Below, one piece after another: positions 1 through 20,119 of a stretch of 24,633 nucleotides of DNA. The translations under genes and the position numbers were made by a program. The notes beneath the pieces were generated by a model that worked only from the letters and a program-made list of their open reading frames with translations, did not search any database and was not told where the DNA came from. Each line of letters starts with the position of its first letter. Within the stretch, counting starts at the first letter, position 1. Source of the DNA: a virus; IMG/VR virus record IMGVR_UViG_3300036985_004253, positions 1 through 24,633 of that record, one strand, 5' to 3'.

Positions 1-2224
1 TTCCTTTCCAGTTTCCAAGGTATCCTTTCCCTAATGAAAACAGCCTGTTGAACTCATGTGACTGAGTGTTTGTCGGAACGCCGTCTTGGTCTGGGCGAGG
101 ATGGGCTGAATCGTACCAGTTTTCCTCCGTGAATGTTTTTCCGGTCAAGTGACTTGACTCTTCCATGCAGCGATCTTGAGGACCGTTCGGGAGCGACGGC
201 TTTGGAGCTTGCGGAACAGCAAATAGCTTCGCCTCCCCAAATCCTTCTGAGAACAAAGGATTCTCAAGGCTGTAAGTTTTTCCTAAAATGCTTGGGTTGC
301 TTTGACTTGGGGCAGCTACAGAATTTGGATCAATCAAACCTTTCAAAGCGTCGCGCCTGGCTTTGATAATGTCAAAAATTGAACTTGACGCAAGGCCTCC
401 AATCGGTGAACCTTGAAGCACGTTTCCTAAAACAGCGTTCAGTGTGGCGTCTGACAGATTGCCAGTCACGTCCTTGATTGACTGCATGACATCTATCTTC
501 GTCATCTCGCTGAAAACTCCAGCGGACGCCTTATTATTTCCATTGGGGTCGCGAAGAGAGTTGATCTCGCCGGGTATCTTACCGAACAGCGATCCTTTGG
601 GAGACCCTTTTGCGCGATAAAGAAGTGAACCTCCCACATCAATCCGGACCGCTCGTCCGTGAGAGTCTGTCATGAAGTTGTCGTTTGATAATCCAACAAC
701 ATCCCAATTGGCCAGCAGCGCATCTGCCGCAAAGCCATCTGCCGCTCCTGTTGTTCCTCCATTGGCTGGACCAACCAACTTCGTGAGACGCGAGGCTATC
801 ATGTTCGGATTGCCTTTGACCAGCTGAAGTTCTGGAGTTAACACGCCAACCGCATTGTAAAGTCGCGCTGCCAGAAGCTCATTCAAAGCGTGGTCTTTCG
901 ATTGAACTGTCTTGACATACCAAACCGCTCCGCTCGCGTCTTTGTATTGAGCCCCTGGATTGCTTCCTCCGAGCGAACCTCCGACATTTATCATCGCCGT
1001 TAAATCTATCGGGACGTTGCTATACGGATTTGGAACGGGGTGCTTGGTGAACTGACCGCCATGTTCGTTTCCTTTCCCAACTCGAGCGTGCTTGGTTTCG
1101 TCAAAGGTGTCGCTGCCGTGAATAGGTCCGCTTCCACCCGCTCCCTCAAGGTTGCACCGGCAGTTGATCACTTCTTCCGGTGGTCCGTTGGGGTCGCCGG
1201 GGAACATCAGACCGTTTTGAAATGGGGAGGAAACGGGAACAGCCCCTTGCTCCTCGCAGAGAAAGTGGCTGTCCCGCACCCTATCATCACCCATCGTCAA
1301 CCAAACCTTGCTCCGGTAACCAGCCAGAGCAAGAGCCTCCGCCTGTGACACGCCGTACGTCACCTGCGCTTCAGTTGCAGCCACCCGTTGTGCCGCACCC
1401 TCAGAAATGTCGTTAAATACTTCATTCGCCCGGCGAGCCAGAGCCTTGGGGCTCTCGCCTCCCGCTAGGCCTCGTTTGAGGCTGGCGGCCACTTTCTCCC
1501 GCACCGCCACTGGAAACGCTTCTAAAGGCTGTTTGCGGCTGGCGGCGAAGGCTTCTAGGACGTCTTCATCCGGGGTATTGGCGAACCCTTGGTGGGCTGA
1601 TAAGGCTCTGGCCGTAGTTTTGCGCGCCTTCTTGGCCGCTAGCATCATCGCTACGAACCAAGCGACGCCCATCGCGACGAGACCGGCGATGATTTCATCA
1701 AGGTCGTCCCTGCGCTTGATTCCTGACACCGTTTTGAAATTGAGCTCTGAGAGCCAGCCGTCTATTTCGGCTTTGTAGATTCCTTCAGCTACGACGCGAG
1801 CTTTCTCGTGGTAGTTGTCGGGAGCGTCTTCTGCTGCTGTGACAGCTTCAATCCGGCGAGCGATGCGTTCAGCGCGGACGGCGGAGAGGAGGCTGGTGCT
1901 GTTTCCGGCTTCTATGATAGGCTCAAGCCCCGCCATCCTCTGAAGGGTGTGGTCGGGATTGAGATTGTGATTCTTTATGAGCTTGCGCATCTTCGCGCTT
2001 GCCATTCCGATCTTAACATTATCGGAGTGCGGCCTGTCGTAGTGGCCTTTGTTTCCTCTTGAAAGGCTTTCCCAGTGGTTGTAAGCTTCGCGAACCTCTC
2101 CGTGCTTTGATTCGTCCCACTGGTTATGCCCCTCCGGGTTGCTCGCCATCACGGGCGATCGCGGCAGCCCAGCCATAAGCCGAGCAGCGCGCAACCGAGC
2201 AGGATGATTGAAAGTAACAGCCAC
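1..2224 (-). CDS. MuF-type head morphogenesis protein with C-terminal kinase-like domain (partial, runs off window)
   Basis: The frame is open for 741 codons, from a GTG at 2224 to the window edge, and its C-terminus is missing. Residues 29-94 are a NPEGHNQWD...KIGMASAKM module shared with the protein at 9430-9993. Residues about 177-198 are a hydrophobic helix. Residues 312-357 fit the MuF (Mu gp30 / SPP1 gp7) core, with GDDRVRDSH at 312-320 and NCRC at 354-357. Family members attach to the portal and act in head assembly, and some carry fused effector domains. Residues about 420-560 look like a HipA/PI-kinase-fold domain: K438 in WYVKT, E449 in NELLAARL, NWD at 506-508, NDN at 514-516 and IDVGG at 528-532. 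A HPR...G motif lies near the edge. The start is uncertain: neither the GTG nor ATG codons at 2176 and 2149 has a clear ribosome site. The MuF call is firm; the kinase call is an inference from motif order. Confidence 0.85.
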   Translation of the reverse strand, partial: MAVTFNHPARLRAARLMAGLPRSPVMASNPEGHNQWDESKHGEVREAYNHWESLSRGNKGHYDRPHSDNVKIGMASAKMRKLIKNHNLNPDHTLQRMAGLEPIIEAGNSTSLLSAVRAERIARRIEAVTAAEDAPDNYHEKARVVAEGIYKAEIDGWLSELNFKTVSGIKRRDDLDEIIAGLVAMGVAWFVAMMLAAKKARKTTARALSAHQGFANTPDEDVLEAFAASRKQPLEAFPVAVREKVAASLKRGLAGGESPKALARRANEVFNDISEGAAQRVAATEAQVTYGVSQAEALALAGYRSKVWLTMGDDRVRDSHFLCEEQGAVPVSSPFQNGLMFPGDPNGPPEEVINCRCNLEGAGGSGPIHGSDTFDETKHARVGKGNEHGGQFTKHPVPNPYSNVPIDLTAMINVGGSLGGSNPGAQYKDASGAVWYVKTVQSKDHALNELLAARLYNAVGVLTPELQLVKGNPNMIASRLTKLVGPANGGTTGAADGFAADALLANWDVVGLSNDNFMTDSHGRAVRIDVGGSLLYRAKGSPKGSLFGKIPGEINSLRDPNGNNKASAGVFSEMTKIDVMQSIKDVTGNLSDATLNAVLGNVLQGSPIGGLASSSIFDIIKARRDALKGLIDPNSVAAPSQSNPSILGKTYSLENPLFSEGFGEAKLFAVPQAPKPSLPNGPQDRCMEESSHLTGKTFTEENWYDSAHPRPDQDGVPTNTQSHEFNRLFSLGKGYLGNWKG

Positions 2225-3532: not shown

Positions 3533-5275
3533 TTACGCAGGCTTGATCACGATGCCCACGCGAGGGTCGCCCTGAGCACTGCCCCACATGACGCACACGC
3601 GCTGGCTGATGCTCATCTTGCCGTTGTCGGCGTAGCTGAACACCATCACGGTCAATCCGCTGTCAGGCTCAGTTACGAGACGGACGCTGGCGGTTGAAGG
3701 GATGCCGAGCTGAGTCAGCGTGGTCGTCCAGTCCTGCGGAGGACGGCTGACGAACAGGAAGCTGCTCATGTTGCCCGCGAAGCCCGTCATGGCCGTAGTG
3801 CCCAACGTAGCATCGTCAGTCCAAGTGGTCAACGCACCGGCTGCGGTAGCGGAGGCCAATTGGCTTTCGAGCGGCTTGACACCGAACAGCGACGGCACTT
3901 CACCAGACTCGAAGCTGGAGACGTCCTTGTTGATCAAAGCGAGAATCGCCTTGGCCGACAGAAGGTTGGAGTCTTCCAGGAGCTTGTCGTGGTAGAAGCT
4001 GTGCAGCAACACGAAGCGACCGACGTCCGGGATTTTGCTGATCGTCATTGCATTCTTCACGCCAATCATGCCAGTCAAGTTCCAGTTCGCAAGCGACTTG
4101 ATGTAGCTCGTCTTGATGCCCGTCCAAGTGGCGGCGAAGATGCCCGCCAACACGTTGGTGTTGATTTCCTGCGCGAGGCTGTAGGTCTGCGCGCCGTATT
4201 GTTCCGCGAACAGGTTGCGGATGGTGCCGCCGAGCAAGCTCACAGGGAACTCGACTTCGGTCGCCTTGAACATGTTCATCGTGACGGATTTGTCCGTGGT
4301 GGACGGAACGCTCTTCTTCGGGTGGCCGAAGATGTTCGTCGCGTCCAACGCTTGCGCGCCTGCCCCCTCAGTGGACAGCGGGAGACCGCCGGACTGAGTG
4401 GTGCCAGTGCCAGAATCGCTGATCTGGTTGGCTTGTGACGTGAATCCAACGCCAGGCACCCAGGTGAGCACGTCAGGCGGAGTGATATAGCGCGTCAGGA
4501 TGGCCTGACCGAACTTCGCAGGCTCGCCGGAGAAGTCCGTCGTGAGCTTGCCGAGCCACGGCAACTTGTACTTCAAGAAGCCAAGGTTGCGCATGAGGAT
4601 CAAATCCCCAGCCAACGCACCGACTTGCGCGTTCGGGTCGCTGAATGTCGCAGCGCGAATCGTGTTCGGGTCGAACCGGGTTGCGCCTTTGACGCTGTCC
4701 GTCATGAGCAGATCGCTCGCCTTCATGTGATGCTTGGCCAGGATGACAGCAGCCTCTTTGGACTGCTTGGCGGCTTCGCCCCATTGGTTGGAGCGGCACA
4801 GTTCGTTCTGGTGCTCCATCGCTTTGATGTAGCCGTTGGTCGCGTCCTTGATGTCAACGCCGGTGGACTCATACGTGGTGAACGGGATGCCACCGTTCAT
4901 GTCCTGCTGGAACCGCGTGGTGCGATTGCTGGCTTGCACGGCAGCTTTGCCGGGCAGACCGTCAATGAACGCCAACACAAACTCGGGGTCAGCCCCTTGT
5001 TCCAACTGCTTGACCGCTGTGGCGGTGACCTTCTCAACCGTGTTCTCGCCGTCACCTTTGGGGATGATGGCTTCGCGTTCGACTGCGCGGTTCACTGCGC
5101 TGACGACCAGCCCCTTGGCTTGGCTGCGGACACGCTCATTGGCGGCGTGTTCCGACGCGGTGATGTATTCGTGCCCGGCTTCGGCAAGAACGTCCAGCTC
5201 AGACCCTGAAAGGTCTAACGCTGCGCCCGCTCTGATCTTGCTGTCCTGCGGGACTCTTGTGATAACGATCTTCAC
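3533..5275 (-). CDS. Major capsid protein (HK97-fold expected)
   Basis: I take the GTG at 5275 as start (VKIVITRVPQDS...). It is preceded by AAAGGAAC at good spacing, and the longer in-frame start at 5332 would add about 19 very basic residues with no ribosome site. The resulting 580-residue protein lies directly after the prohead protease gene, where Mu-like phages keep the capsid gene. Residues about 25-130 are helical and charged, as expected for a scaffold-like delta region that could be removed by the protease. The rest has mixed alpha/beta composition with many Thr, Gly and Pro, for example TRYITPPDVLTW and TSYIKSLANWNLTGMIG, ending GIVIKPA. No other gene here is a better capsid candidate. 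The HK97 fold is inferred from context. The hairpin leader upstream and stem downstream suggest high and separately tuned expression. Confidence 0.8.
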   Translation of the reverse strand: MKIVITRVPQDSKIRAGAALDLSGSELDVLAEAGHEYITASEHAANERVRSQAKGLVVSAVNRAVEREAIIPKGDGENTVEKVTATAVKQLEQGADPEFVLAFIDGLPGKAAVQASNRTTRFQQDMNGGIPFTTYESTGVDIKDATNGYIKAMEHQNELCRSNQWGEAAKQSKEAAVILAKHHMKASDLLMTDSVKGATRFDPNTIRAATFSDPNAQVGALAGDLILMRNLGFLKYKLPWLGKLTTDFSGEPAKFGQAILTRYITPPDVLTWVPGVGFTSQANQISDSGTGTTQSGGLPLSTEGAGAQALDATNIFGHPKKSVPSTTDKSVTMNMFKATEVEFPVSLLGGTIRNLFAEQYGAQTYSLAQEINTNVLAGIFAATWTGIKTSYIKSLANWNLTGMIGVKNAMTISKIPDVGRFVLLHSFYHDKLLEDSNLLSAKAILALINKDVSSFESGEVPSLFGVKPLESQLASATAAGALTTWTDDATLGTTAMTGFAGNMSSFLFVSRPPQDWTTTLTQLGIPSTASVRLVTEPDSGLTVMVFSYADNGKMSISQRVCVMWGSAQGDPRVGIVIKPA

Positions 5276-5282
5276 TTTTGTT

Positions 5283-5337
5283 CCTTTGTTTGTTTGTTTA
5301 CCGTCCCGCTTTTCAAGCGGTTTCGCCCGCACGGGCG
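5283..5337 (-). promoter_or_regulatory. Capsid gene leader: two small hairpins and ribosome binding site
   Basis: Between the protease-scaffold stop and the capsid GTG lie two perfect small stems. One is at 5324-5337 (CGCCC/GGGCG around a four-base loop). The other is at 5306-5320 (six pairs around a three-base loop). An unstructured stretch of repeated AAAC units follows, then AAAGGAAC, which fits a ribosome site about six bases before the GTG at 5275. Such a leader can raise mRNA stability and keep the start region single-stranded. No clear promoter boxes were seen in it. Confidence 0.4.
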
Positions 5338-5354
5338 TAAATTGTTTTAATCAT
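5313..5354 (-). CDS. 13-codon mini-ORF between protease-scaffold and capsid genes (doubtful)
   Basis: An ATG at 5352-5354 overlaps the end of the long protease-scaffold gene in another frame and gives MIKTIYARAGETA before a TGA. The peptide repeats the IYARAET element found inside the long protein at about residue 1006, and a 16-base DNA repeat lies under it. It may be a remnant of one more repeat unit lost by frameshift, or a coupling peptide that carries ribosomes toward the capsid start. Translation is not shown. Confidence 0.25.
   Translation of the reverse strand: MIKTIYARAGETA
5329..5344. repeat. 16-base direct repeat, second copy at 5840-5855
   Basis: GCACGGGCGTAAATTG occurs at 5329-5344 and again at 5840-5855, 511 bases apart. 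Both copies encode the IYARA element on the minus strand: one in the long protease-scaffold protein, one in the 13-codon frame just after it. The identical DNA suggests a fairly recent tandem duplication of a module of about 500 bases, whose later copy was truncated or slipped out of frame. Confidence 0.7.
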
Positions 5355-8300
5355 CGGAGCCGTGTTTGTAACTGTAGTCTCTGCTTGCTTTTCTCCAATC
5401 AATTTCAGAAGTTGAGGAAGATTTCCCGGTCTGCTCCTTTTTGAGACGCGCCTGCTTGAATTGATTTGCACTTTCTTTTCCGTGAGCTTCTCCAATTCCG
5501 CTGTGCTTGTGATAAAGGTCTTCATTCCCTGCTGCGAGGTGTTTGCCGGACGCTTTATTGTGAGCGATGTTGGCTTCGTTGTGCGTTGCCCTTCCGGAAC
5601 CGTCTGACGCCTTTTCTCCAACGGAGTACGCTTCCTTTGATGCCTGATGAGCTTCAAAACCTTTCATGTCTCCAGACCTTGCAGCCTCATGAGACATCGC
5701 ATCGTGATGGAGCACCATCTTCTCTGTTTCGTCTGGATTTGGAATTGAAGCCACAGATGGAGCTGCTCCCGATTTCGCCATCCTCGCTTCGAACGCAGCC
5801 CTTCGAGATTCAGGACTCCAAGTAGCCGACACCGTCTCAGCACGGGCGTAAATTGAATTGAGGATATCGTCAACCGACTTATCGCTTGTCTGAATTGGGC
5901 CTCCCGCCGCCCCGGCTTTCAGTAAATACCTTGTCTTGTTGATGGCCTTTTCCATATCGGCTACTAAGTTATTCAAGTCCTCGCGGTCACCCCGCATCCC
6001 CGTGACGATCCTCTCGCCGGCATCGAGAACCGCCGCCGGGTCATTGGGGTCGCAGTCGCAAGATTCGGGAGTTACCTTTTCGGGTTTCTTGCCCATGCTT
6101 GACTCAACATACTCGTCAACCAAGCCGTCAAGTGTTTCGTAAAGCTTGCCTAAGGCTTCATGGTCGTTAGTCTGAGTCGGCGCGTTCCAGTGGGCGGCTC
6201 GCAAGCTGCCGAGCAGGCCGAGAAGCTTTCCGCAATGAGCTTTTACTACGTTAGTTGAATGACCGGAGCTAGCGTAAATCTTGTTCAAAATGTCCTGTGG
6301 TGTGGCGTCGGCGGCGAACGTCTTTCCGCCGCCCTTGTCGCCGCGTTCAATCTTTCTTCCGTGCTCGGCGATAGCAGCGTGCGGCACGTGGCCGTACATT
6401 GCACCGCCCCCGGTAGCTGCGAAGTGCGCCCGGCCACCGTCGTCGTGGTGGACGTTCCAGTGCTCGCCGGTTTCGTCCTTGAATGAGTGCGACTCGCCCG
6501 GCTTCAAAGCTGCGACCTTTGCAACGTCTTCGTGCTGAAGAATCGCCGACTTGCTGCTTCCTCCCTTTCCGAACTCAACCTTGCCGACATAAGCGTCGTG
6601 CGAGTAAGCGTGAGCTTGGTTGCGCCTCGCTTCCAAAGCGGCTTTCCGAGCTGAGTCACTCCATGCAGCCGACACCGCGCACTTGGAGTAAACGTCGTCC
6701 AAGGTTGTCCGGGCTACGCCGTGCTCTGTTGCGATGGCGTTGGCCTGCTCAAGCACCGAGGCTTGGCGGGCGAGAATGGTGTCGGGGGTGGTGGTGTCGG
6801 AGGCTCTTGTATTCATCCACTCGTCTTGGCCTTGATTCCCAAAATCGTCATTGGATGATTTGCTTTCGTTGTGCAAGCCTTTGTGCACTGACTCAAGTTT
6901 TTGATGAGCCTTCATAGCCGCTGCATGCTTTTCAGGATTCCCAATGTTGTGCTTGATGAGTCGCTTGTGATGGTCGGCGGCATCTCTGTGCCGAACCGAT
7001 GCTGTAAAGTGATTTCCTTTTTCAGCAAAGTTTGCGGCATAGTCAGCGTGAACATCAGCACCAGCACCCTTTTTCAGTTCGCTCGAATCAAAAGGCTTTG
7101 CGTACGGAGTGCCGGCCATTGCATCCTTGCTCAATGCGTGAGCTTTTCTTGATTCAATGGCGGCCTTCCGTGCTGCATCAGACCACACAGCTGTCACCGT
7201 GTCCGATGAAGTGGAACCCGTCACCTTGTCGTAAATCTCTTCCAGCGAAGCCTTGGCAGCCGGGTTGCGCTGCTTGCGAATCTCCTCAACTGCTCTGGTG
7301 TGCGAGCCGCCGTCCTTAAGGCACTTCTCGTAACACGCGACTTCGGCGGGTGTGGCGTCGGGCACGTCTTGTTTGAGGGTTTCAGCGCAGTGGGCGTTGA
7401 TGGTGGATGATGAGGTGGCGTCTCGCTTGAACGAGCCAAATACGGAAGCCGCTTGCCCCATGTTGCGATGCGATTCAGCGGCGTGCTTGTGATAGTTCTC
7501 AAAGTCCTCGTGGTCTTCAGAATAACTTTCGTGCCCCTTCATTTCAGCGTGTGAAGCGCGAGCCTTGTCATGGGCCGCGGCTGCGTGTTCGTGCGCTTCT
7601 GGGGTGTCTTTGTGCATTGCCGTGAAGTGCTCTCTGTCAGCAAGCGTCGTCAAGTTGCTGGCGTGCCGCTTGCGCGACTCCCAGCTTTTTGCAACCCCTT
7701 CGCTGGTGCCAGCCGCCTTCACCGCATCGCTCGCCTTCACCGGACTCATTGAGTGAAACGCCGGTTTGTTAGTGAGCGTCCCTACGCAGAAATCTACTCC
7801 CGTGATCTGCGCCGGGTTGCTCCGGCTGCCGCGTGCGCCTTCCGGGAACATCAACACGCCACCACATTCCGTCGCTTTGCTGTAGTCTGCGTCTGTGGTG
7901 AACGATGGCGACCAGCTGCGGTGAACACGCCCGTTGACGTTATTCGCTCCTAGAGTCGTAGGCTCGGCGGCCAGATACACGCCGTCGTCGTTCCACTTGA
8001 ACCCGCAGGAAGCTCCGACCCGGAAGCTGGCTTCTTGCTCTTTGTGTTCAATGCAGCCGAACGGCTCTTGCTTGGGGCGTTCCTCGCGCCAGTTTTCCAG
8101 CGAAGCCTGAACAGCGGCAGCGGTGTTCTCGTCGCAGTTGACGGTCAACTCAATTGAGCCTTTGCGGAAGCCTGCGCAAATGGTTGAGGTGCCAGCAGGC
8201 ATCCACATGAACTCAACTTGCTCGCCGGGTGACCACGGCTTGTCGGCGGCCAGAACCGAGCCAGCGGCAGAGTGGGAGCGGCAGTGGATGACTTCGGTAG

Positions 8301-8868
8301 AGGTGGCGTCAGAGGCTTTGGCTTTATCGCCTGATTCTTCAGCGTGTTCGAGTAGGCATTTTTCGTGAACGGCTTGAAGTTTTTCGTTTCCTTTTGCTTC
8401 TTCCATTGAGGCTAAGTGTTCAAGTCCAGCTTTGTGGTGGTCGTCTGATTTTCCCGTCTTCCAAGCCTTAACGCTAGCGAGATGCGCCCGCTTTCCGGTC
8501 AGGCTTTCAGTTTGCGCCATTTCGCTCAAATGGAAGCCGCGCCGCTCTACCCACCCCTTCTTCGCCCCTTCGCTCGTGCCAGCCGCCCGGACTACGTCGC
8601 TGGATTCGGTGGAGGTGGCTTTGTTCGCGCCGGATTGCTTGTCGTGAAACTCGGCCATTGAAATATGATGTTCAGATTTCTCTGCATGGCTGTCAGACCT
8701 TGCTCCGCTCGTGCTGATTGACAGCTCAGAATGGTGGTCTGCTGCAATTCCATGAAGGTCGGCTGCTGCTTTGTGGTCCGACGCCAAACCGGATGACTTC
8801 GCCTTCTTGCTTGCTGCGGCTGCGGCTCGTGCTGCGTCGCTCCAGGCTGCTTGAATTGTTTCGCTCAT
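5347..8868 (-). CDS. Prohead protease (Mu gpI-like) inside a long repeat-rich scaffold-type mosaic protein
   Basis: The protein has 1173 residues from an ATG at 8868, four bases after the preceding stop; an in-frame start at 8892 lies inside the upstream gene. Residues about 207-377 match the Mu gpI protease-scaffold pattern: FMWMPAGTSTI, then EH at 274-275 (likely catalytic His), then SWSPSF near 318-323 (likely catalytic Ser), ending VGTLTNKPAF. AAGTSEG elements flank the domain (residues about 95 and 385). A WS..AR.AA..SR/EAR unit recurs near residues 8, 560, 734 and 1015, each followed by His-rich helical segments. Residues about 872-987 look ferritin-like (LRAAHWNAP...LYETLDGLVDEYVE), as in the phage DUF5856 family. 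Mu gpI has about 360 residues, so this one is very long. It probably self-cleaves and trims the capsid protein; the roles of the extra units are unknown. Confidence 0.85.
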   Translation of the reverse strand: MSETIQAAWSDAARAAAAASKKAKSSGLASDHKAAADLHGIAADHHSELSISTSGARSDSHAEKSEHHISMAEFHDKQSGANKATSTESSDVVRAAGTSEGAKKGWVERRGFHLSEMAQTESLTGKRAHLASVKAWKTGKSDDHHKAGLEHLASMEEAKGNEKLQAVHEKCLLEHAEESGDKAKASDATSTEVIHCRSHSAAGSVLAADKPWSPGEQVEFMWMPAGTSTICAGFRKGSIELTVNCDENTAAAVQASLENWREERPKQEPFGCIEHKEQEASFRVGASCGFKWNDDGVYLAAEPTTLGANNVNGRVHRSWSPSFTTDADYSKATECGGVLMFPEGARGSRSNPAQITGVDFCVGTLTNKPAFHSMSPVKASDAVKAAGTSEGVAKSWESRKRHASNLTTLADREHFTAMHKDTPEAHEHAAAAHDKARASHAEMKGHESYSEDHEDFENYHKHAAESHRNMGQAASVFGSFKRDATSSSTINAHCAETLKQDVPDATPAEVACYEKCLKDGGSHTRAVEEIRKQRNPAAKASLEEIYDKVTGSTSSDTVTAVWSDAARKAAIESRKAHALSKDAMAGTPYAKPFDSSELKKGAGADVHADYAANFAEKGNHFTASVRHRDAADHHKRLIKHNIGNPEKHAAAMKAHQKLESVHKGLHNESKSSNDDFGNQGQDEWMNTRASDTTTPDTILARQASVLEQANAIATEHGVARTTLDDVYSKCAVSAAWSDSARKAALEARRNQAHAYSHDAYVGKVEFGKGGSSKSAILQHEDVAKVAALKPGESHSFKDETGEHWNVHHDDGGRAHFAATGGGAMYGHVPHAAIAEHGRKIERGDKGGGKTFAADATPQDILNKIYASSGHSTNVVKAHCGKLLGLLGSLRAAHWNAPTQTNDHEALGKLYETLDGLVDEYVESSMGKKPEKVTPESCDCDPNDPAAVLDAGERIVTGMRGDREDLNNLVADMEKAINKTRYLLKAGAAGGPIQTSDKSVDDILNSIYARAETVSATWSPESRRAAFEARMAKSGAAPSVASIPNPDETEKMVLHHDAMSHEAARSGDMKGFEAHQASKEAYSVGEKASDGSGRATHNEANIAHNKASGKHLAAGNEDLYHKHSGIGEAHGKESANQFKQARLKKEQTGKSSSTSEIDWRKASRDYSYKHGSDD

Positions 8869-8872
8869 AATC

Positions 8873-9151
8873 TTATTTCGCTCCGAAGCCACTTTGTTTC
8901 TGCGCCGGGATGAAAAACGACGCCCCGCCGCGTGGCTGTTCTTGCTTGATTGCGCTGACGATCTCTTGTGATTGAGTTACGCCCACGGGTTGTTCTGCGA
9001 CCGAACTCTCTTCGGGCGTCACGGTCTCCGCCGTGTCTGTGGGCGATGGCACTTCTGGTGCGCTCACCTCCGTGGGCGTGCCCGCTGGCGCAACGCTGAC
9101 CGAAGTCGCGGTTGGCTCATTGCGGGAAAATGTTTTGTTCTTTTTGCTCAT
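8873..9151 (-). CDS. Small disordered Pro/Thr/Val-rich protein (92 aa), unknown
   Basis: The ATG at 9151 is one base after the stop of the preceding gene, which favours it over a TTG five codons upstream. The protein starts MSKKNKTFSRNEPTATS, continues with a low-complexity stretch rich in Pro, Thr, Val, Ser and Glu, and ends in GGASFFIPAQKQSGFGAK. It looks mostly unstructured. Position immediately before the protease-scaffold gene suggests an assembly helper or minor head component. No family is recognised. Confidence 0.7.
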   Translation of the reverse strand: MSKKNKTFSRNEPTATSVSVAPAGTPTEVSAPEVPSPTDTAETVTPEESSVAEQPVGVTQSQEIVSAIKQEQPRGGASFFIPAQKQSGFGAK

Positions 9152-9152
9152 A

Positions 9153-9428
9153 TCAGAATTGTTCAATCCTCACAGTTCTCAGCGAGCCGTATTTGCTTTT
9201 TGCGTGATCGTCTTCAAGCTTCTTTTTGTGGCTCCTGGCTTTGTTGAGGGCATTTTCAGCAGCCCCGCCGGGGTCTGTTGTGAAAGTTTTCTTGTGCTCG
9301 TTGTAATCCCTGTCCGTCCAGATCACATGCGCTCCGCTTGCGTTCTTGTTTCCAATCGGCGCGCCAGCCTTGACGCACGCTCCTTGGCGTTGGGCTTTGA
9401 TGTAGATGGCTTCGAGTGTTGCGTTCAT
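9153..9428 (-). CDS. Small head-region protein (91 aa) with TLEAIY element and GAPIGNKNASG motif, unknown
   Basis: The ATG at 9428 sits one base after the upstream stop. The N-terminus MNATLEAIYIKAQ resembles the SLEEIYDK, TLDDVYSK and LNSIYARA elements that open repeat units in the long protease-scaffold protein, so the genes share a module. It is followed by GAPIGNKNASGAHVIWTD, a turn motif I associate with phage and mobile-element proteins, and a basic helical C-terminus (NKARSHKKKLEDDHAKSK). Function unknown; likely a minor head component or one processed by the prohead protease. Confidence 0.75.
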   Translation of the reverse strand: MNATLEAIYIKAQRQGACVKAGAPIGNKNASGAHVIWTDRDYNEHKKTFTTDPGGAAENALNKARSHKKKLEDDHAKSKYGSLRTVRIEQF

Positions 9429-9429
9429 G

Positions 9430-9993
9430 TCAAAACTTGATTCGGTTGTTCAACTGCTCAACGGCTTCTTCTACCGCCGTGACTTCGCCGTTCTTGTGCG
9501 GAGCGTTCTCAGCGGCGGTAAGCTTGGCTTCGAGCTCAGCCAGCTCTTCGTCGGTGGCGTGCACCAAGGCGTCGCGGAGGCTAAGGTCGGTGGCTTTGGC
9601 TGGCTCGTCCGGCTCGCTTGTGAGCATCGGCAGAACCTCGTTTGGGTTAAGATTGTGCTTCTTAATCAAGCGGTGCATCTTTGCGCTCGCCATTCCTATC
9701 TTGACGTTCTGGCTGTGTGGTCTGTCGTAATGCCCTTCTCCCCATCTGCCGAGTTTAAGCCATGCCCTGTAAGCGTCGCGAACCTCTCCGTGCTTCGCGT
9801 TGTCCCACTGATTGTGCCCTTCCGGGTTGTTCGCCCGCACTACATTGACCTTCACAGCCTGACTGCTTCTCACGCCACCGCCGAACACCGCGCTGATCGC
9901 GTCGTTCTTGGCCGTGGGCAAGTCAACGCCGTCGGCTTGTCCGGCGTAGGCCGTTTCAACAATCCGAGCTACTAGTTCAGGCGTTACTTTCAT
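9430..9993 (-). CDS. Head-region protein (187 aa) with a module duplicated in the MuF protein
   Basis: The ATG at 9993 overlaps the preceding stop in an ATGA arrangement. Residues about 56-121 (NPEGHNQWD...NVKIGMASAKM...HNLNP) match residues 29-94 of the MuF protein at 1-2224. By hand count 48 of 66 positions are identical, and the DNA is also clearly similar. The N-terminal 50 residues are helical and unrelated to the MuF protein. The C-terminal 60 residues are acidic and coiled-coil-like (LVHATDEELAELEAKLTAAE). The conserved module probably binds a shared partner such as the portal or DNA, but that is inference. Not assigned to a named family. Confidence 0.8.
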   Translation of the reverse strand: MKVTPELVARIVETAYAGQADGVDLPTAKNDAISAVFGGGVRSSQAVKVNVVRANNPEGHNQWDNAKHGEVRDAYRAWLKLGRWGEGHYDRPHSQNVKIGMASAKMHRLIKKHNLNPNEVLPMLTSEPDEPAKATDLSLRDALVHATDEELAELEAKLTAAENAPHKNGEVTAVEEAVEQLNNRIKF

Positions 9994-12606: not shown

Positions 12607-14535
12607 CTAGCTCTCTTCAATTACAGCCTCAAGCCTGCCCTGCTCGTCGCGGACGACGCGCTTCGTAACAGTTCTTCCAGCCTCGGCTTTCAAGGTGATG
12701 TTGATCGGTTGAGCCTCCACAGGCTCTGAAGCCGCAACAGTGATGTTGATGGGCTGCTCTTGACGTTCGGGCAAATTGACCACCGGCGATTCTTGCCTGA
12801 TGTTGATGTTTGGAGGAGCGACATTGATCACATTCGGCGTTGGCGGAACAGGCAGGAGGTCGTCTCCGCAGCGGCTGGCGGCAATTGAAAGTTCGCTCAA
12901 GCTGTTAGCGTAGCCGCCAATAGCTTTGACTCTCTCGCTGGCTTGAACTTGCTGCTGCCCTTGCTGCGCTTCGCCCTGAAGTTCCATCTGGACTTCGGCC
13001 TGCTTGACCTGCTGGCCAAGCTGCTCGTTGAACTTGTCCTCCTTGGTCATGGCGGCCTCCTGAATCATCAGCTCGCCACGGACCAGCACCACTTCGCCCT
13101 CGTCCGGCTGGGTGAATCCGATCTTCTTGTAAAACTCATCTGCCCTGACAGGCAGTCCGCTGCTGCTGATTGCTGACGCCAGCATGCCCACCTGCTCGGT
13201 TTTGAGCGGCTTGGTAGTGTCAGGCGCAATCTCTGGACATTCGTCATCGTTGCCGTAGTTCCGTCGCAGCACCGCACGGGCAAATTGTCTGAGCGGGTTG
13301 CGCGCCAGCCAATTGGCCACGCCCATGATCCGCTCGGCTTTGACGTTCTCGTGTGAGTCATCGTTGCCGAGTTGACCAGGAACCGCCGTGGTCGTCCCCT
13401 TTTGGCCGAGCAGGAGGAACAGACAGGCTTCGTCGGCTTTCTCCTCGAGGACGCGCTGCGGGTTCTCCTTGCCCAAACTGGACGGCTGATGAATGACCGC
13501 TGTCGTTCCTTCGGGGTGAATCAAGCGGCGTTGTGCGCCTGCCGTCTTGAGCATCTCGTTGAGCTTCTCAAGCTCGCCGTTTGGTCCGGTGCTGACCGTG
13601 CCCGGCTTGTAGGTGATGTCAATGAACGGGCTGCCGTATTGCTTGGCCGTGTTCAGCATCCACTCGTTGTTGAACTGGCGAGCCGACCAATACCAGACGA
13701 GCGGACGCATGAAACCCGCCCCAAGTGAACTGCCAGCTTTGCTTATGAACTGCGCACAAACAAACTTGTCGGGGTCAGGGTTGATGCCCTTGCCCGCGTT
13801 GTTGTTTTGGGGCGAGATGCGGTTCCCGTCGTCATTGTAGAGAGCGATTGAGCCAGCAGTTGAGAAGGTGTAGTGACGGGGATGAACCCACGCCGAGGAC
13901 ACCGGCAGCCACTCTTTGCCGTGCTCGCTGGAGACTTTCGTCTTCCAGAGCAATTCGACCAAGCTCAGGCCATTCAGCATACCGTCGCACAACGCGTAGG
14001 CCATACCGCTGAATCCCTTTTCGTCGTTGAAAGAATCTGGAGCCATGCTGCGTATTGCCCGGCTGACCAAGTCGGCCTTCTCAATTGCTTTCTTTGACGG
14101 CTTCTTTCCCTCTTCGGCGCAAGGATGAACGGCGTACCGCATGTATGACGCGGCTTCGCAAAGCTGGTGGCTGGCCATCCGGAACGTCGGCCAAGTATCA
14201 AGCATCAGCTGGCAAAGGTTGTATTGCTGAAACAAGTCACCAGCCAGCGCGGCTCGCAGCATTTGAAGGCATTGCTGCGGCGTGAGCTTGTTCGGCATCG
14301 TCCAAAAGAAAGCCTCACGCGGGTCGTTGCGGATGATGCGGTCGCTGTTGCTCAAGGTTTCAATGCCTGTATTGTCAATCGGAAAGAGAACGCCGTTCGT
14401 CACAGGTTGTGACGGAAGCGTGTTTGACATCGGCATGCGGCTGGCAGCTGAAACGGGCAATTGAGAAAGGAAAACGCCCGCAGGAGCGTTCCTGCGAGCT
14501 TCTTGAATGTTTGAGCCTGTTGGCTGGCTAATCAC
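12607..14535 (-). CDS. Portal protein, DUF935 / Mu gp29-like
   Basis: Portal proteins form the dodecameric DNA gate at one capsid vertex. The 642-residue protein shows the DUF935 pattern: GMAYALCDGMLNGLSLVELLWK near residue 180, then LGAGFMRPLVWYWSARQFNNEWMLNTAKQYGSPF near residues 270-300, then LARNPLRQFARAVLRRNYG near 415. The C-terminal 150 residues are Gln/Glu-rich and partly coiled-coil. The start is a GTG at 14535, the first possible start after an in-frame stop about 24 bases upstream. It has no ribosome site and lies inside a hairpin, one base after the stop of an 18-codon frame, so coupled translation is likely. An ATG at 14436 is an alternative start. It follows the terminase genes, as expected for packaging. 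Confidence 0.88.
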   Translation of the reverse strand: MISQPTGSNIQEARRNAPAGVFLSQLPVSAASRMPMSNTLPSQPVTNGVLFPIDNTGIETLSNSDRIIRNDPREAFFWTMPNKLTPQQCLQMLRAALAGDLFQQYNLCQLMLDTWPTFRMASHQLCEAASYMRYAVHPCAEEGKKPSKKAIEKADLVSRAIRSMAPDSFNDEKGFSGMAYALCDGMLNGLSLVELLWKTKVSSEHGKEWLPVSSAWVHPRHYTFSTAGSIALYNDDGNRISPQNNNAGKGINPDPDKFVCAQFISKAGSSLGAGFMRPLVWYWSARQFNNEWMLNTAKQYGSPFIDITYKPGTVSTGPNGELEKLNEMLKTAGAQRRLIHPEGTTAVIHQPSSLGKENPQRVLEEKADEACLFLLLGQKGTTTAVPGQLGNDDSHENVKAERIMGVANWLARNPLRQFARAVLRRNYGNDDECPEIAPDTTKPLKTEQVGMLASAISSSGLPVRADEFYKKIGFTQPDEGEVVLVRGELMIQEAAMTKEDKFNEQLGQQVKQAEVQMELQGEAQQGQQQVQASERVKAIGGYANSLSELSIAASRCGDDLLPVPPTPNVINVAPPNINIRQESPVVNLPERQEQPINITVAASEPVEAQPINITLKAEAGRTVTKRVVRDEQGRLEAVIEES

Positions 14536-15334: not shown

Positions 15335-15507
15335 TTTTTTCCTTTATCAATTTCAGCCATCTTGGCCTCAATTGCTTTTAGAGTGACCGACTCGAAAGGT
15401 TTTCGGTCTTCGTATTTTCGGCTGCCCGGGACACCTTTTAAGACTGGATCTTTGAACCCGCTAGCCGTTGCTCTCGGTGCATATTTACTTCTTTTTGGTT
15501 TATTCAT
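15331..15507 (-). CDS. Small basic protein (58 aa), unknown
   Basis: The ATG at 15507 overlaps the end of the large terminase gene by eight bases and opens MNKPKRSKYAPRATASG; a start 17 codons further upstream would lie deep inside the terminase gene. The protein is basic and hydrophilic with a C-terminal helix (VTLKAIEAKMAEIDKGKK). It is probably cytoplasmic and made by coupled translation with terminase. No family is recognised. Confidence 0.65.
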   Translation of the reverse strand: MNKPKRSKYAPRATASGFKDPVLKGVPGSRKYEDRKPFESVTLKAIEAKMAEIDKGKK

Positions 15508-16948
15508 AATTCTCGTCAGTTGCGTCAATGTTACTATTGTAAACGTCAATCGCCTCACCCGCTAGCCGCTGGTAGCCCGTTGTAGCCACTTGAATGTCTT
15601 GCCCGCTCCAAGCTCCCGTCGGGACTCGCAACGCTTCTAATGCCCCAGCGGCGGCGTCGGCTTGGTCGTTCTTTTCGTCCTCGCCTTTGCAGCCTTCAAG
15701 CTCGTCAACGAAATCCTGGTTCCACTTCCCTTTCACGATGAACACCCGTCCGTGTTCCGCAGCAGCGGAAAGCGGCGACCAGCGGAGCAGTTTCTTCTTT
15801 GAGCTTGGAACGCCGCTGAAGTCGTAACCAACGAGGACATTGCGGGCGTAGTGGCCTTCGTCGCCGCTCAAGCTCTTGCCGCTTGCTCCGCCTTCCTGCT
15901 CCATTCTGACCATAACCGATGGCCCATCAAGTGCGGCTGTCGCTTTGATTGTCTGCTCGTTCGTCAGTGGCGACCCCTGGAAGTGGACGCAATCAGCGAT
16001 ATAGATGTTGCCGCCAACTTCGCCCAGCTTGACTCCCGCCGTCCAGTCGGGGTCTTTCCCAGGAGCAGGGGCAGTGGCTGCCAAATCCCAATAGCGGCAC
16101 CAATTGAAGATTCCGGGCGGTGGCTGGTCAACAAACTTCCACCACTCGCGCTTGAAGATGTTGCCAGCGACGGCGATCTTCCAGTTCCCGCCGAGCAACC
16201 TCTCACGGTCAACCATCGGCAACGCCATCAGGTTCGCGAGGTATCCAGGGTCTTTCCGCATGAGCACCTGATTGTCATCCAGCTTGCTGAGGATGAACGT
16301 CAGGCTCTTTGGTTCGCTCTCTGGGTGCTTGGCCTTGGCTTCGAACTTTGTATTGAACCAACGCAGCCCGTCACCGATGCGGACAAACCAGCGGACTTTG
16401 CCGCTTCTCTCAGGAATGGCGTAACCGGTTTCTTCATCCCACCACCAACTGATCAGCTTGGCCAACCATCCGGGCTGTGGATTGCAGCTTGCCCGGATGT
16501 AGGGGCGAACACCGCACGTTGAGCGGCTGCGGCTGAGGAGGTAGAAGAATTGTTTCTCTGTGAAGGACTCAAGTTGATCAAACTCAATCAGCGGTATCTG
16601 TGCGCCGTCATAATCGTAACGGCTCTGCTCGTTCTCCATGCTGCGGAATTGAACAGTGCTGCCGCTTGGGAACGTCCACCGCAATGCGCCTTTGGTTCCG
16701 GTTGCTCCAGCGTAAGGGTAGATGGCTTCGCTTTCATCCCACAGCCCGCCTTCGAGAGTGATCTGGGGGTATGTCCGACGGAACACGATCGCGCCGAAGT
16801 TTGGATTGCCGATATGATAGAGCGGTTCGTAGAGCAAGCTCCAAGTCTTCCCACCTCCCGCCGCTCCGCCAAAGATCGTGATGTCGGCGGTGCTTTTCAG
16901 GAATTGTTCCTGCTTGGCTTGTGGCGTGAACTTTACCTCTTCGCTCAA
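15500..16948 (-). CDS. terL: Terminase large subunit (packaging ATPase-nuclease)
   Basis: The large subunit pumps DNA into the prohead and cuts the concatemer. The 482-residue protein has Walker A GGAAGGGKT at 27-35, an adenine-side segment FRRTYPQI, Walker B PLIEFDQ at 119-125 and the coupling segment SRSRSTCG at 140-146. The nuclease half begins RYWDLAAT at 285-292 (first acidic residue D288), continues with DPDWTAG near 299-305 and has a late acidic group in KNDQADAAAGALEAL. The usual catalytic Glu after the Walker B Asp is Gln here (FDQ, not FDE), which is odd for an active motor. The ATG overlaps the small-subunit stop (ATGA). The family call is secure. Confidence 0.95.
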   Translation of the reverse strand: MSEEVKFTPQAKQEQFLKSTADITIFGGAAGGGKTWSLLYEPLYHIGNPNFGAIVFRRTYPQITLEGGLWDESEAIYPYAGATGTKGALRWTFPSGSTVQFRSMENEQSRYDYDGAQIPLIEFDQLESFTEKQFFYLLSRSRSTCGVRPYIRASCNPQPGWLAKLISWWWDEETGYAIPERSGKVRWFVRIGDGLRWFNTKFEAKAKHPESEPKSLTFILSKLDDNQVLMRKDPGYLANLMALPMVDRERLLGGNWKIAVAGNIFKREWWKFVDQPPPGIFNWCRYWDLAATAPAPGKDPDWTAGVKLGEVGGNIYIADCVHFQGSPLTNEQTIKATAALDGPSVMVRMEQEGGASGKSLSGDEGHYARNVLVGYDFSGVPSSKKKLLRWSPLSAAAEHGRVFIVKGKWNQDFVDELEGCKGEDEKNDQADAAAGALEALRVPTGAWSGQDIQVATTGYQRLAGEAIDVYNSNIDATDENYE

Positions 16949-19030: not shown

Positions 19031-20119
19031 TTAGGCTAGCCGCATTGGTGAAACGATGTAAAGGAACGGCCCTTCGTTTTTGATCACGAGCGGGCTTATC
19101 TCGTCGTTGATCTCCAAAGAAACGTCCTTATCGGAAAGAGCGTTCAAGGCGTCGGTGATGTATTTAGGGTTGAAAGCGATTGAAAAGTCTTTCTCTTTGT
19201 ATTTCAGCTCCATGCTCTCCGTCGCATCGCCAACCTCTGGAGAGTTTGAAGTTATGGTCAGGAGGTTGTTCGTGAATACAAGCTTCACAGACTGCCACTT
19301 TTCGCTCGTCATGATTGACACCCGCCGCAAGGCTCCAGAGAACTCTTCTCGAGGAACAGAGATTTTCATGCTATAGCTTTTTGGGATGATCTGATTGATG
19401 TCCGGGTATGCTCCTTCGATCAACTTTGTGTAAACTGAAACGTTCCCGATGGTGAACTTTGCAGAATTATCTCCAAACTCCGCAATCGCTTTTCCTTCAT
19501 CTCCAAGAAGTCGGCAAATGACCATCGCCGCTTTAGATGGAATGATAATTTTCACCCGCTCGGATATTTCACCGTCGACGCTGTTCAAAGCCAAGCGCCT
19601 GCCGTCCGCCGCAACGGCTTTGATCAGTTTTCCATCCGCTTCAATCATTGTCCCGCAAAGAACATATCGAGACGCTTCTTCAGACATGGCAAACATCACT
19701 TGACTGAAGACTTTTTTGATTGCGGACTGATCTACTGAAACCTTTTTCGGATTGACAATAGCTTGGAACAGTGGGAACTCAGACGATGCGATTCCTCTGA
19801 GGTTATACTTCGACGGCCCGCTTTTGATGCAGCAGACATTGTTTTCGTCAACCTCGATCTTCACGTCGTCTCCGATGATCTCCCTTGAAGCAGCTGAAAG
19901 CCGGAACTCTGAAACTGTTACGGAGCCTTCTTTCTCCACCGCGGCTGGAACCTCGCAAGAGACCATCAAGTCCAGATTCGTAGCTGTTATTTTCAAGCTG
20001 CTTCCAGACGCTTGAATGAGAAGGTTCGCCAGAACAGGCATGGCCGTCTTGCTTGCGACCACGCCGTCAACTGCCTGGATTGCCTTTAGGAGGTTTTCTT
20101 TTTTGATTGTTGTTTTCAT
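19031..20119 (-). CDS. dnaN: DNA polymerase III beta subunit (sliding clamp)
   Basis: The clamp is a ring dimer that holds the replicative polymerase on DNA. The 362-residue protein has the full bacterial length and pattern: KENLLKAIQAVDGVVASKTAMPVLANLLI at the N-terminus, ATNLDLMVSCEVPA near residue 45-60, VSEFRLSAASREI, then EFPLF. The C-terminus IVSPMRLA is the peptide-binding pocket ending of DnaN (usually MPMRL). All three repeats seem present. The start is an ATG ten bases after the preceding stop, without a strong ribosome site. A phage-coded complete clamp suggests its own polymerase or redirection of the host replisome; no polymerase is in this window. Confidence 0.95.
   Translation of the reverse strand: MKTTIKKENLLKAIQAVDGVVASKTAMPVLANLLIQASGSSLKITATNLDLMVSCEVPAAVEKEGSVTVSEFRLSAASREIIGDDVKIEVDENNVCCIKSGPSKYNLRGIASSEFPLFQAIVNPKKVSVDQSAIKKVFSQVMFAMSEEASRYVLCGTMIEADGKLIKAVAADGRRLALNSVDGEISERVKIIIPSKAAMVICRLLGDEGKAIAEFGDNSAKFTIGNVSVYTKLIEGAYPDINQIIPKSYSMKISVPREEFSGALRRVSIMTSEKWQSVKLVFTNNLLTITSNSPEVGDATESMELKYKEKDFSIAFNPKYITDALNALSDKDVSLEINDEISPLVIKNEGPFLYIVSPMRLA

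Follow-up and report, generated by a model that had tools for sequence, protein, structure and literature searches.

The window analyzed here is a 24.6-kb virus record (IMG/VR record IMGVR_UViG_3300036985_004253; 24,633 nucleotides) with a Mu-type head gene cluster on its minus strand. One gene of this cluster encodes a 1173-amino-acid (aa) protein in which a protease core resembling the prohead protease gpI of phage Mu is flanked on both sides by variable units. Comparison with six distinct relatives from IMG/VR (L001, L002, L003, L005, L010 and L011) supports the relationship to gpI, a border site common to the unit starts, and units that have been exchanged from one relative to another and from gene to gene. 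It is somewhat probable that the gene is a Mu gpI-like protease/scaffold gene carrying inserted, exchangeable cargo cassettes that would be cut free in the prohead. Cleavage at the border, docking of a short tag (LxxIYxK..., the IY tag), packaging and a cargo function are what we infer from this arrangement.

The units share a site directly ahead of their starts. Five start motifs (GxSEGxxKxW, W[ST]..[AS]RxAA, GAxxGN[KQ]xAxG, NPEGHNQW and GH[KP]F[HY]GN) were sought in sense-strand open reading frames (ORFs) of at least 60 aa in the DNA of the seven genomes. They occur at 34 places in six genomes (L003 has none), places that are not independent, in that their linkers may share descent. The tripeptide [VI]-x-A ends zero to two residues ahead of the motif at 32 of the 34, compared with 0-6 of at most 34 for 24 offset controls. 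Exceptions are the L011 portal, which has FVRG, and one place in L005, where VKA lies a few residues further upstream. Among the 32 sites there are 28 distinct 9-mers; Val or Ile is encoded by five different codons and Ala by all four, indicating a constraint on amino acids, not on DNA. At P2, 25 of the sites have R, T, Q or K, and at P1', 24 have A, G or T. This border resembles in form the site cut by herpesvirus assemblins. Assemblin sites of human cytomegalovirus are of the form VxA-S. For pseudorabies virus, an excerpt of the literature gives the sites as most likely YLQA-T and presumably VQA-S (PMC4498786).

A site of similar form is seen elsewhere in the head genes. VQA/S or AQA/S (a slash marks the predicted cut) is present in five of six portals, and 43-54% of the [VI]xA tripeptides of each capsid protein lie within the first 135 of 570-580 residues. 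VQA/S as a single cut in the capsid protein was dropped, as several sites exist. KAS alone was also considered as the cut site; [KQR]AS is enriched in the window, L001 and L005 and not clearly so in L002, L003, L010 and L011, and it was replaced by [VI]xA with an optional KA/S. Outside the group, the peptide GNKNAAGPH was found in ten viral contigs (two pairs nearly alike), mostly in small proteins. Read by eye, all ten have a plausible Met no more than about 30 residues away, and none is directly preceded by [VI]xA. This pattern fits captured proteins whose start codon was replaced by a cut site. The initial annotation had suggested a polyprotein, possibly released by self-cleavage at unit borders. 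The unit mosaic bears out part of this, and a cleavage-like tripeptide common to the unit starts makes self-cleavage there more likely, with cleavage and packaging themselves predicted.

Exchange of units is apparent in comparison with the nearest relative, L001. Window and L001 DNA agree at 83-99% in blocks in and around the cluster (blastn), and the modules between the blocks differ. Window blocks 7250-7401 and 6689-6792 adjoin in L001, so that a whole unit was inserted or lost between NPAAKA and SDTTTPDT. The accessory gene at 9430-9993 has a cassette that L001 replaces by a different one; it is bordered by VVRA (in L001, VVQA) and AKA (NKA), and the DNA on both sides is 93-94% identical. 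Seven of the nine recombination edges in the large gene lie within 12 base pairs (bp) of a [VI]xA or candidate site or an IYxK tag, a distance that takes in 20% of the gene; the p-value by random placement, 2.5e-4, is indicative only, because the sequences had already been seen when the site rule and the edge test were devised. The two remaining edges are at distances of 44 and 38 bp from a listed site, near FAA/D and near the end of a start motif; an edge at 5342, just outside the gene, was excluded from the test. Cassettes also recur between genes. The cassette of the L010 portal is found in the sister phage L011 in the gene that follows the portal (87% identity); the L011 portal itself holds another. 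An L001 accessory-gene cassette (g3014a) has a counterpart in L010, in a gene far downstream (70%), and a further L001 accessory-gene module is matched over part of its length by the L002 end module (40% over 47 aa). In the window, the Mu F-like protein begins with a second copy of the cassette of gene 9430 (Table 1).

Recombination edges located at conserved anchors could also arise if the units were mostly neutral passenger DNA, shuffled by repeats and homing endonucleases, with the anchors serving as DNA recombination sites. A GIY-YIG/NUMOD3 gene within the gene in L011, a similar one (by eye) just upstream in L005, and loss of frame at the last unit in the window and L010 are all in keeping with this. 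The codons at the borders vary, however, the frames are open over up to 1173 aa in seven genomes, and the His heptads described below are regular, and mere passenger DNA thus seems the least probable of the explanations weighed here.

On sequence grounds the core is gpI-like, with its fold unproven. The initial annotation had placed a gpI-like protease in about 170 residues; profile comparison upholds the relationship, but the conserved core is slightly longer, at 186 aa. It is 67-94% identical to the window core in the six relatives, and the rest of the protein is a mosaic. His275 and Ser318/320/322 are invariant in the seven aligned cores, among them the earlier candidates for catalysis, His275 and Ser320/322. 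Aligned by hhalign to 11 phage gpI proteases (Mu, D3112 and nine others, some end-trimmed), the core gave a probability of 90 and an E-value of 1.6e-06 in a single comparison, with EH, SPxF-like and TN.P motifs co-aligned. A rerun scored 45.0, compared with 23.9 for the best of 200 column shuffles, 12.3 for the reversed profile and 13.6 for the best capsid-protein slice. The Pfam model of Mu gpI-type proteases, PF10123, was matched by neither the window protein nor the six relatives, and the core is for this reason called gpI-like and not placed in that family. The designation follows from the profile match together with a position directly upstream of the capsid gene, like that of Mu gene I. 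As had been noted earlier, the protein is about three times as long as Mu gpI (361 aa; ratio 3.2).

Both kinds of unit start recognized in the initial annotation were found, the AAGTSEG duplications at residues 95-101 and 385-391 and the WS..AR.AA starts at W9, W562, W736 and W1017. Self-comparison of the protein by BLAST, which that annotation had called for, gave no off-diagonal match; the repeats are short, two unit starts being 61% identical over about 30 aa. The His-rich stretches it described are real. In 13 modules picked by eye as His-rich (five from the window and eight from relatives), His-His spacings of 7 and 14 are in excess over shuffles (48 vs 10.1 and 27 vs 9.4), and a spacing of 3 is absent (0 vs 10.3). 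Alanine is enriched at positions +/-3 and +/-4 of the histidines, giving an H..AA.. heptad that is found in five of the seven window units. These units are probably helices with His on one face.

Unit 6 is of another kind. A ferritin-like segment had been claimed near residue 900, and a domain is indeed present there: DUF5856 (PF19174) matches residues 902-983 (E-value 3.2e-08) just over its cut-off, with 35.0 bits vs 34.6 (35.8 bits in a second scan), and PHROG_858 matches residues 871-984 (E-value 4.2e-09). They are, respectively, the sole Pfam match over cut-off and the sole PHROG match of the 1173-aa protein, which has no NCBIfam match. The ferritin attribution itself is weaker than claimed. 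The unit has an AHWN motif as in Escherichia coli Dps, but Ferritin PF00210 does not match it, its pairwise score of 30 with E. coli Dps was reached by 210 of 500 shuffles, the hhalign probability was 0.9 of 100, and its AlphaFold model is of low confidence. Membership in the ferritin/Dps group was rejected as unproven; only the DUF5856/PHROG_858 match stands, and Dps itself falls in another PHROG. Peptide patterns revealed no close relative of the unit in viral contigs, and the best match among solved structures had an E-value of 0.62. DUF5856 was not mentioned in any open-access paper found. Dps-type proteins have been reported in gut phages, according to a partial text of PMC8008677.

Another explanation is a string of effectors of the polyvalent type that is injected uncut, any processing taking place in the new host. 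The units recur in Mu F and portal proteins, which an extract of PMC5512222 describes as fused to likely injected domains, and the Mu F-like protein of the window has a weak HipA-like tail (E-value 0.052). Yet the protease is of the capsid-maturation type and stands beside the capsid gene and, DUF5856 excepted, none of the units in the seven polyproteins scanned matches a family significantly. Injection as an intact string is accordingly judged improbable, if marginally less so than neutral passenger DNA.

Several results weigh against cassettes that are cut and packaged, in addition to the possible shared descent of the linkers and the post hoc edge test mentioned above. [VI]xA is common in the 1173-aa protein (20 vs 12.8 expected; 26 of 1000 shuffles reach 20), and four such tripeptides lie inside the protease core, at 207, 232, 255 and 286. 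Not every site can therefore be cut, and selective cutting would need context. The capsid protein has several candidate sites, none singled out. KA/S or KA/T closes only units 1, 2 and 4 of the seven window units, an IY tag precedes only units 4-7, and the terminal IYARAG tag is out of frame or past the stop in three of seven genomes (window, L002 and L010). The core has no Pfam, PHROG or NCBIfam match (Pfam was checked in the window and six relatives). AlphaFold models are poor, with predicted local distance difference test (pLDDT) scores of 39.7 and 45.7, the former for the core modeled from seven sequences, and the two best Foldseek matches of the core model in the PDB, both T4 gp21, are non-significant (E-values 0.085 and 0.11). 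Fold searches in general gave no PDB match at E 0.001 or better.

Some of these points would be expected if the protein stays whole and serves as an extended scaffold, with variable helical units that occupy the prohead until they are degraded or expelled, [VI]xA being a linker habit inherited by duplication. His/Ala heptad units, five of the seven in the window, are as freely variable as filler could be, the linkers look related (KASDxTS...), and closing sites and tags are missing at some units. The same VxA border, however, also stands before units in genes that do not encode scaffolds (portal, Mu F and accessory genes); it is not obvious that a DUF5856 domain would serve as filler; and five unlike start motifs have only VxA in common. 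We regard an uncut scaffold as unlikely, if less so than the two explanations above.

The preferred reading, a protease/scaffold gene with cassettes cut free in the prohead, can be laid out as follows. A unit would consist of a [VI]-x-A site, usually a start motif (AGTSEGxKKxW, WSDAARKAA or GAPxGNKNAAG) and a variable body, with a short front tag (LxxIYxK...) and a closing KA/S or KA/T in part of the units. During prohead assembly, scaffold parts and tags would hold the cassettes within the shell; as in the case of the capsid targeting sequence of T4 and the tail of the herpesvirus scaffold, the IY tag would serve for docking. Cuts made next by the protease after [VI]xA and KA would take the N-terminal part off the capsid protein and release the cassettes; these would remain with the DNA and may be injected. 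A fuller and more tentative version, to which we give somewhat less than an even chance, is a plug-in cargo system. A small protein captured behind a herpesvirus-like [VI]xA site in the protease, portal, Mu F or an accessory gene would be taken along into the prohead. Excision by the gpI-like protease would restore its natural N-terminus, and it would be delivered together with the DNA. Cassettes would be exchanged between genes and phages by recombination at the borders.

The features of the locus are collected in Table 1. The full ORF spans 5347-8892 on the minus strand and would encode 1181 aa from a GTG start; the ATG at 8868 gives 1173 aa and agrees with the start context of L001 and L002 (MSETI). 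The polyprotein gene follows the portal gene, with several small genes between them, and is directly upstream of the capsid gene as in Mu; Mu F is placed elsewhere.

Table 1. Head cluster genes and parts of the putative polyprotein in the window; modules were delimited by eye, residues are those of the 1173-aa protein, and a slash marks a predicted cut
Feature	Position	Strand	Remarks
Large terminase	15500-16948	-	
Portal	12607-14535	-	Portal_Mu, E 1.7e-40; VQA/S in C-terminal part; cassettes directly after equivalent site in L010 and L011
Accessory gene	9430-9993	-	Middle (about 9599-9836, VVRA to AKA) is an exchangeable cassette, with another one in L001
Accessory gene	9153-9428	-	LEAIYIKA + ACVKA-GAPIGNKNASG; one extra cassette between two IY tags in L001
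Putative polyprotein gene, 1173 aa	5347-8868	-	ATG start; GTG alternative at 8892
Unit 1, residues 8-85	8614-8847	-	WSDAAR start, His-heptad helices (predicted); preceded by TIQA, ends NKA/T; 85% identity over 78 aa in L001
Unit 2, residues 96-185	8314-8583	-	AGTSEGAKKGW start, His-heptad helices (predicted); preceded by VVRA, ends AKA/SD; body swapped for another module in L001
gpI-like (assemblin-type) protease core, residues 194-379	7732-8289	-	Ends PVKA/SD
Unit 3, residues 386-480	7429-7713	-	AGTSEGVAKSW start, His-heptad helices (predicted); preceded by AVKA; end without KA/S
Conserved block 1 (HCAETLKQDVPDATPAEV..., residues 493-540)	7249-7392	-	Scaffold-like by position; preceded by TINA, ends AAKA/S; blastn: L001 over 7250-7401 at 88%, L005 over 7296-7401 at 85%
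IY tag SLEEIYDKV, residues 541-549	7222-7248	-	
Unit 4, residues 561-689	6802-7188	-	VWSDAARKAA start, His-heptad helices (predicted); preceded by TVTA, ends TRA/SD; with tag and linker absent from L001 at corresponding place
Conserved block 2 (SDTTTPDTILARQASVLEQANAIATEHGVART)	6706-6801	-	Window 6689-6792 vs L001, 88% (blastn)
IY tag TLDDVYSKC	6679-6705	-	
Unit 5, residues 735-853	6310-6666	-	AWSDSARKAA start, predicted beta region (AlphaFold pLDDT by 10-residue block 47-80 over model residues 1-60); preceded by AVSA, ends FAA/D
IY tag DATPQDILNKIYASS	6265-6309	-	Matches C-terminal tag of L001 protein; window 6272-6315 vs L001 6608-6651, 95% (blastn)
Unit 6, residues 869-990	5899-6264	-	DUF5856/PHROG_858 domain (ferritin-like by family name only); VVKA at 874-877; without start motif; end without KA/S
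IY tag SDKSVDDILNSIYARA	5839-5886	-	
Unit 7, residues 1016-1150	5419-5823	-	TWSPESRRAA start, His-heptad helices (predicted); preceded by TVSA
ATTTACGCCCGTGCGGGCG	5324-5342	-	DNA of the family's C-terminal IYARAG tag; other frame, just past stop
Major capsid protein	3533-5275	-	PHROG_283, E 7.3e-08; directly after polyprotein gene
Second copy of 9430-gene cassette	1943-2152	-	N-terminus of Mu F-like protein; 71% identity over 70 aa
Mu F-like protein	Runs off left window end	-	E 8.2e-08

The end of the gene has a peculiarity of its own. ATTTACGCCCGTGCGGGCG contains a self-complementary CGCCCG/CGGGCG arm and is invariant save one loop base in seven genomes, and it codes a C-terminal IYARAG in only four; it may act as RNA or DNA ahead of the capsid gene. 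The last polyprotein unit is out of frame with the conserved end tag at L010 8360-8860 and window 5313-5360, by loss of frame, a programmed shift or an assembly error. Covarying RNA hairpins after the gene were considered and not supported: all five predicted pairs of the first are invariant, with no compensatory change, and the second was not predicted. Rfam had no match in the window.

A search of IMG/VR with residues 195-385 returned five contigs and an alignment search seven. L003 and L004 share one polyprotein and were counted once, giving the six relatives; L006-L009, L012-L014, L028-L033, L035, L036, L038 and L044-L049 represent these seven contigs cut differently and were left out. Protease and capsid-protein alignments against viral contigs returned the same seven contigs each time (single sequences, five). 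No relatives were found in genome contigs, and GenBank phages held none of the whole protein, the DUF5856 segment or the capsid protein. The DNA pattern of IYARAG occurs in 14 stretches, the seven known relatives and seven others; a search of the latter for relatives of the protease, capsid, portal, terminase and Mu F proteins found none (best E-value 0.38). The proteins of the seven distinct genomes, window first, measure 1173, 830, 687, 397 (L003, the smallest), 749 (counted from the residue preceding Met), 568 and 583 aa. The 568-aa protein finishes in a shifted frame, and that of 583 aa is without the N-terminal piece, which precedes a homing endonuclease gene. In L011, a GIY-YIG homing endonuclease with NUMOD3 motifs (6174-6932; Pfam match) lies between the N-terminal piece and the protease core, and a gene similar to it by eye is found in L005 (4634-5572), just upstream of the polyprotein gene.

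Other observations concern the neighboring genes. The portal has 24 GenBank phage matches, all distant, among the best of which are Akkermansia phage Chantilly (E-value 4e-16) and Faecalibacterium phage FP_Mushu (5e-16) at 22-23% identity. The C-terminal region of the Mu F-like protein (window 2-1100, minus strand) has a weak HipA_2 kinase match (E-value 0.052) behind a GNEHGGQFTK linker and is a possible injected effector. NUDIX domains are joined to the N-terminal side of Mu F in L002 (9905-11734) and L011 (11683-13428), with E-values of 3e-14 and 2e-15. An apparent phage-encoded DNA polymerase sliding clamp was recognized by eye at window 19031-20119 (minus strand).

The arrangement shares features with several known systems. 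Like the gpI/Z gene of phage Mu, in which the scaffold Z is annotated as the C-terminal part of the same frame, the window gene has a core of similar profile and lies directly upstream of the capsid gene. Unlike it, the window protein lacks a PF10123 match, is some 780 aa longer than its smallest relative and has units on both sides of the core. The internal proteins of phage T4 are separate proteins cut by gp21. They are highly diverse and only their capsid targeting sequence is conserved, as stated in part of PMC3012670. A short common element ahead of hypervariable bodies is seen in both cases, the bodies being packaged proteins in T4 and candidates for packaging here. In the window and its relatives, by contrast, the strings of units lie within genes for the protease, portal, Mu F and accessory proteins, only some units have the tag, and the putative site is [VI]xA. 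When a T4-type combination of tag and site was looked for, the site preceded 32 of 34 motif-marked units, and the IY tag only four of seven in the window.

The initial annotation considered the architecture new. Strings of domains with an embedded peptidase are known as polyvalent proteins, multi-domain phage proteins that often include an embedded peptidase and Mu F and portal fusions; most of these peptidases are of the zincin-like kind, and those of the assemblin-like kind always stand at the C-terminus, according to an excerpt of Iyer et al. 2017 (PMC5512222). The head cluster of the window likewise has several unrelated domains in one polypeptide. It differs from what that excerpt describes in that the core is in the N-terminal third (194-379 of 1173) and border sites are common to several genes; the candidates for effector enzyme domains in the window are DUF5856 and, at a weak E-value of 0.052, HipA_2 in Mu F. 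What does set the locus apart is the occurrence of exchangeable units in several virion genes. Herpesvirus UL26 encodes protease and scaffold in one chain, whose C-terminal tail binds the capsid protein (PMC4498786, in part). The one-chain layout and the form of the predicted cut sites are alike; cargo units are not described in that portion of the text. Among the open-access papers listed for polyvalent proteins, prohead protease polyproteins, capsid targeting sequences and prohead protease cleavage consensus, none describes such cassettes in its title or abstract opening. A related logic is thus known from T4 internal proteins and polyvalent proteins, and what is new is the [VI]xA border rule at unit starts.

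If the proposal is true, the border provides a sequence rule for finding packaged or injected phage proteins, namely whatever follows a [VI]xA border in head genes, and the phages would possess a ready-made modular system for loading capsids. It would also mean that a phage protease has a predicted cut site of herpesvirus form, which bears on the common origin of both.

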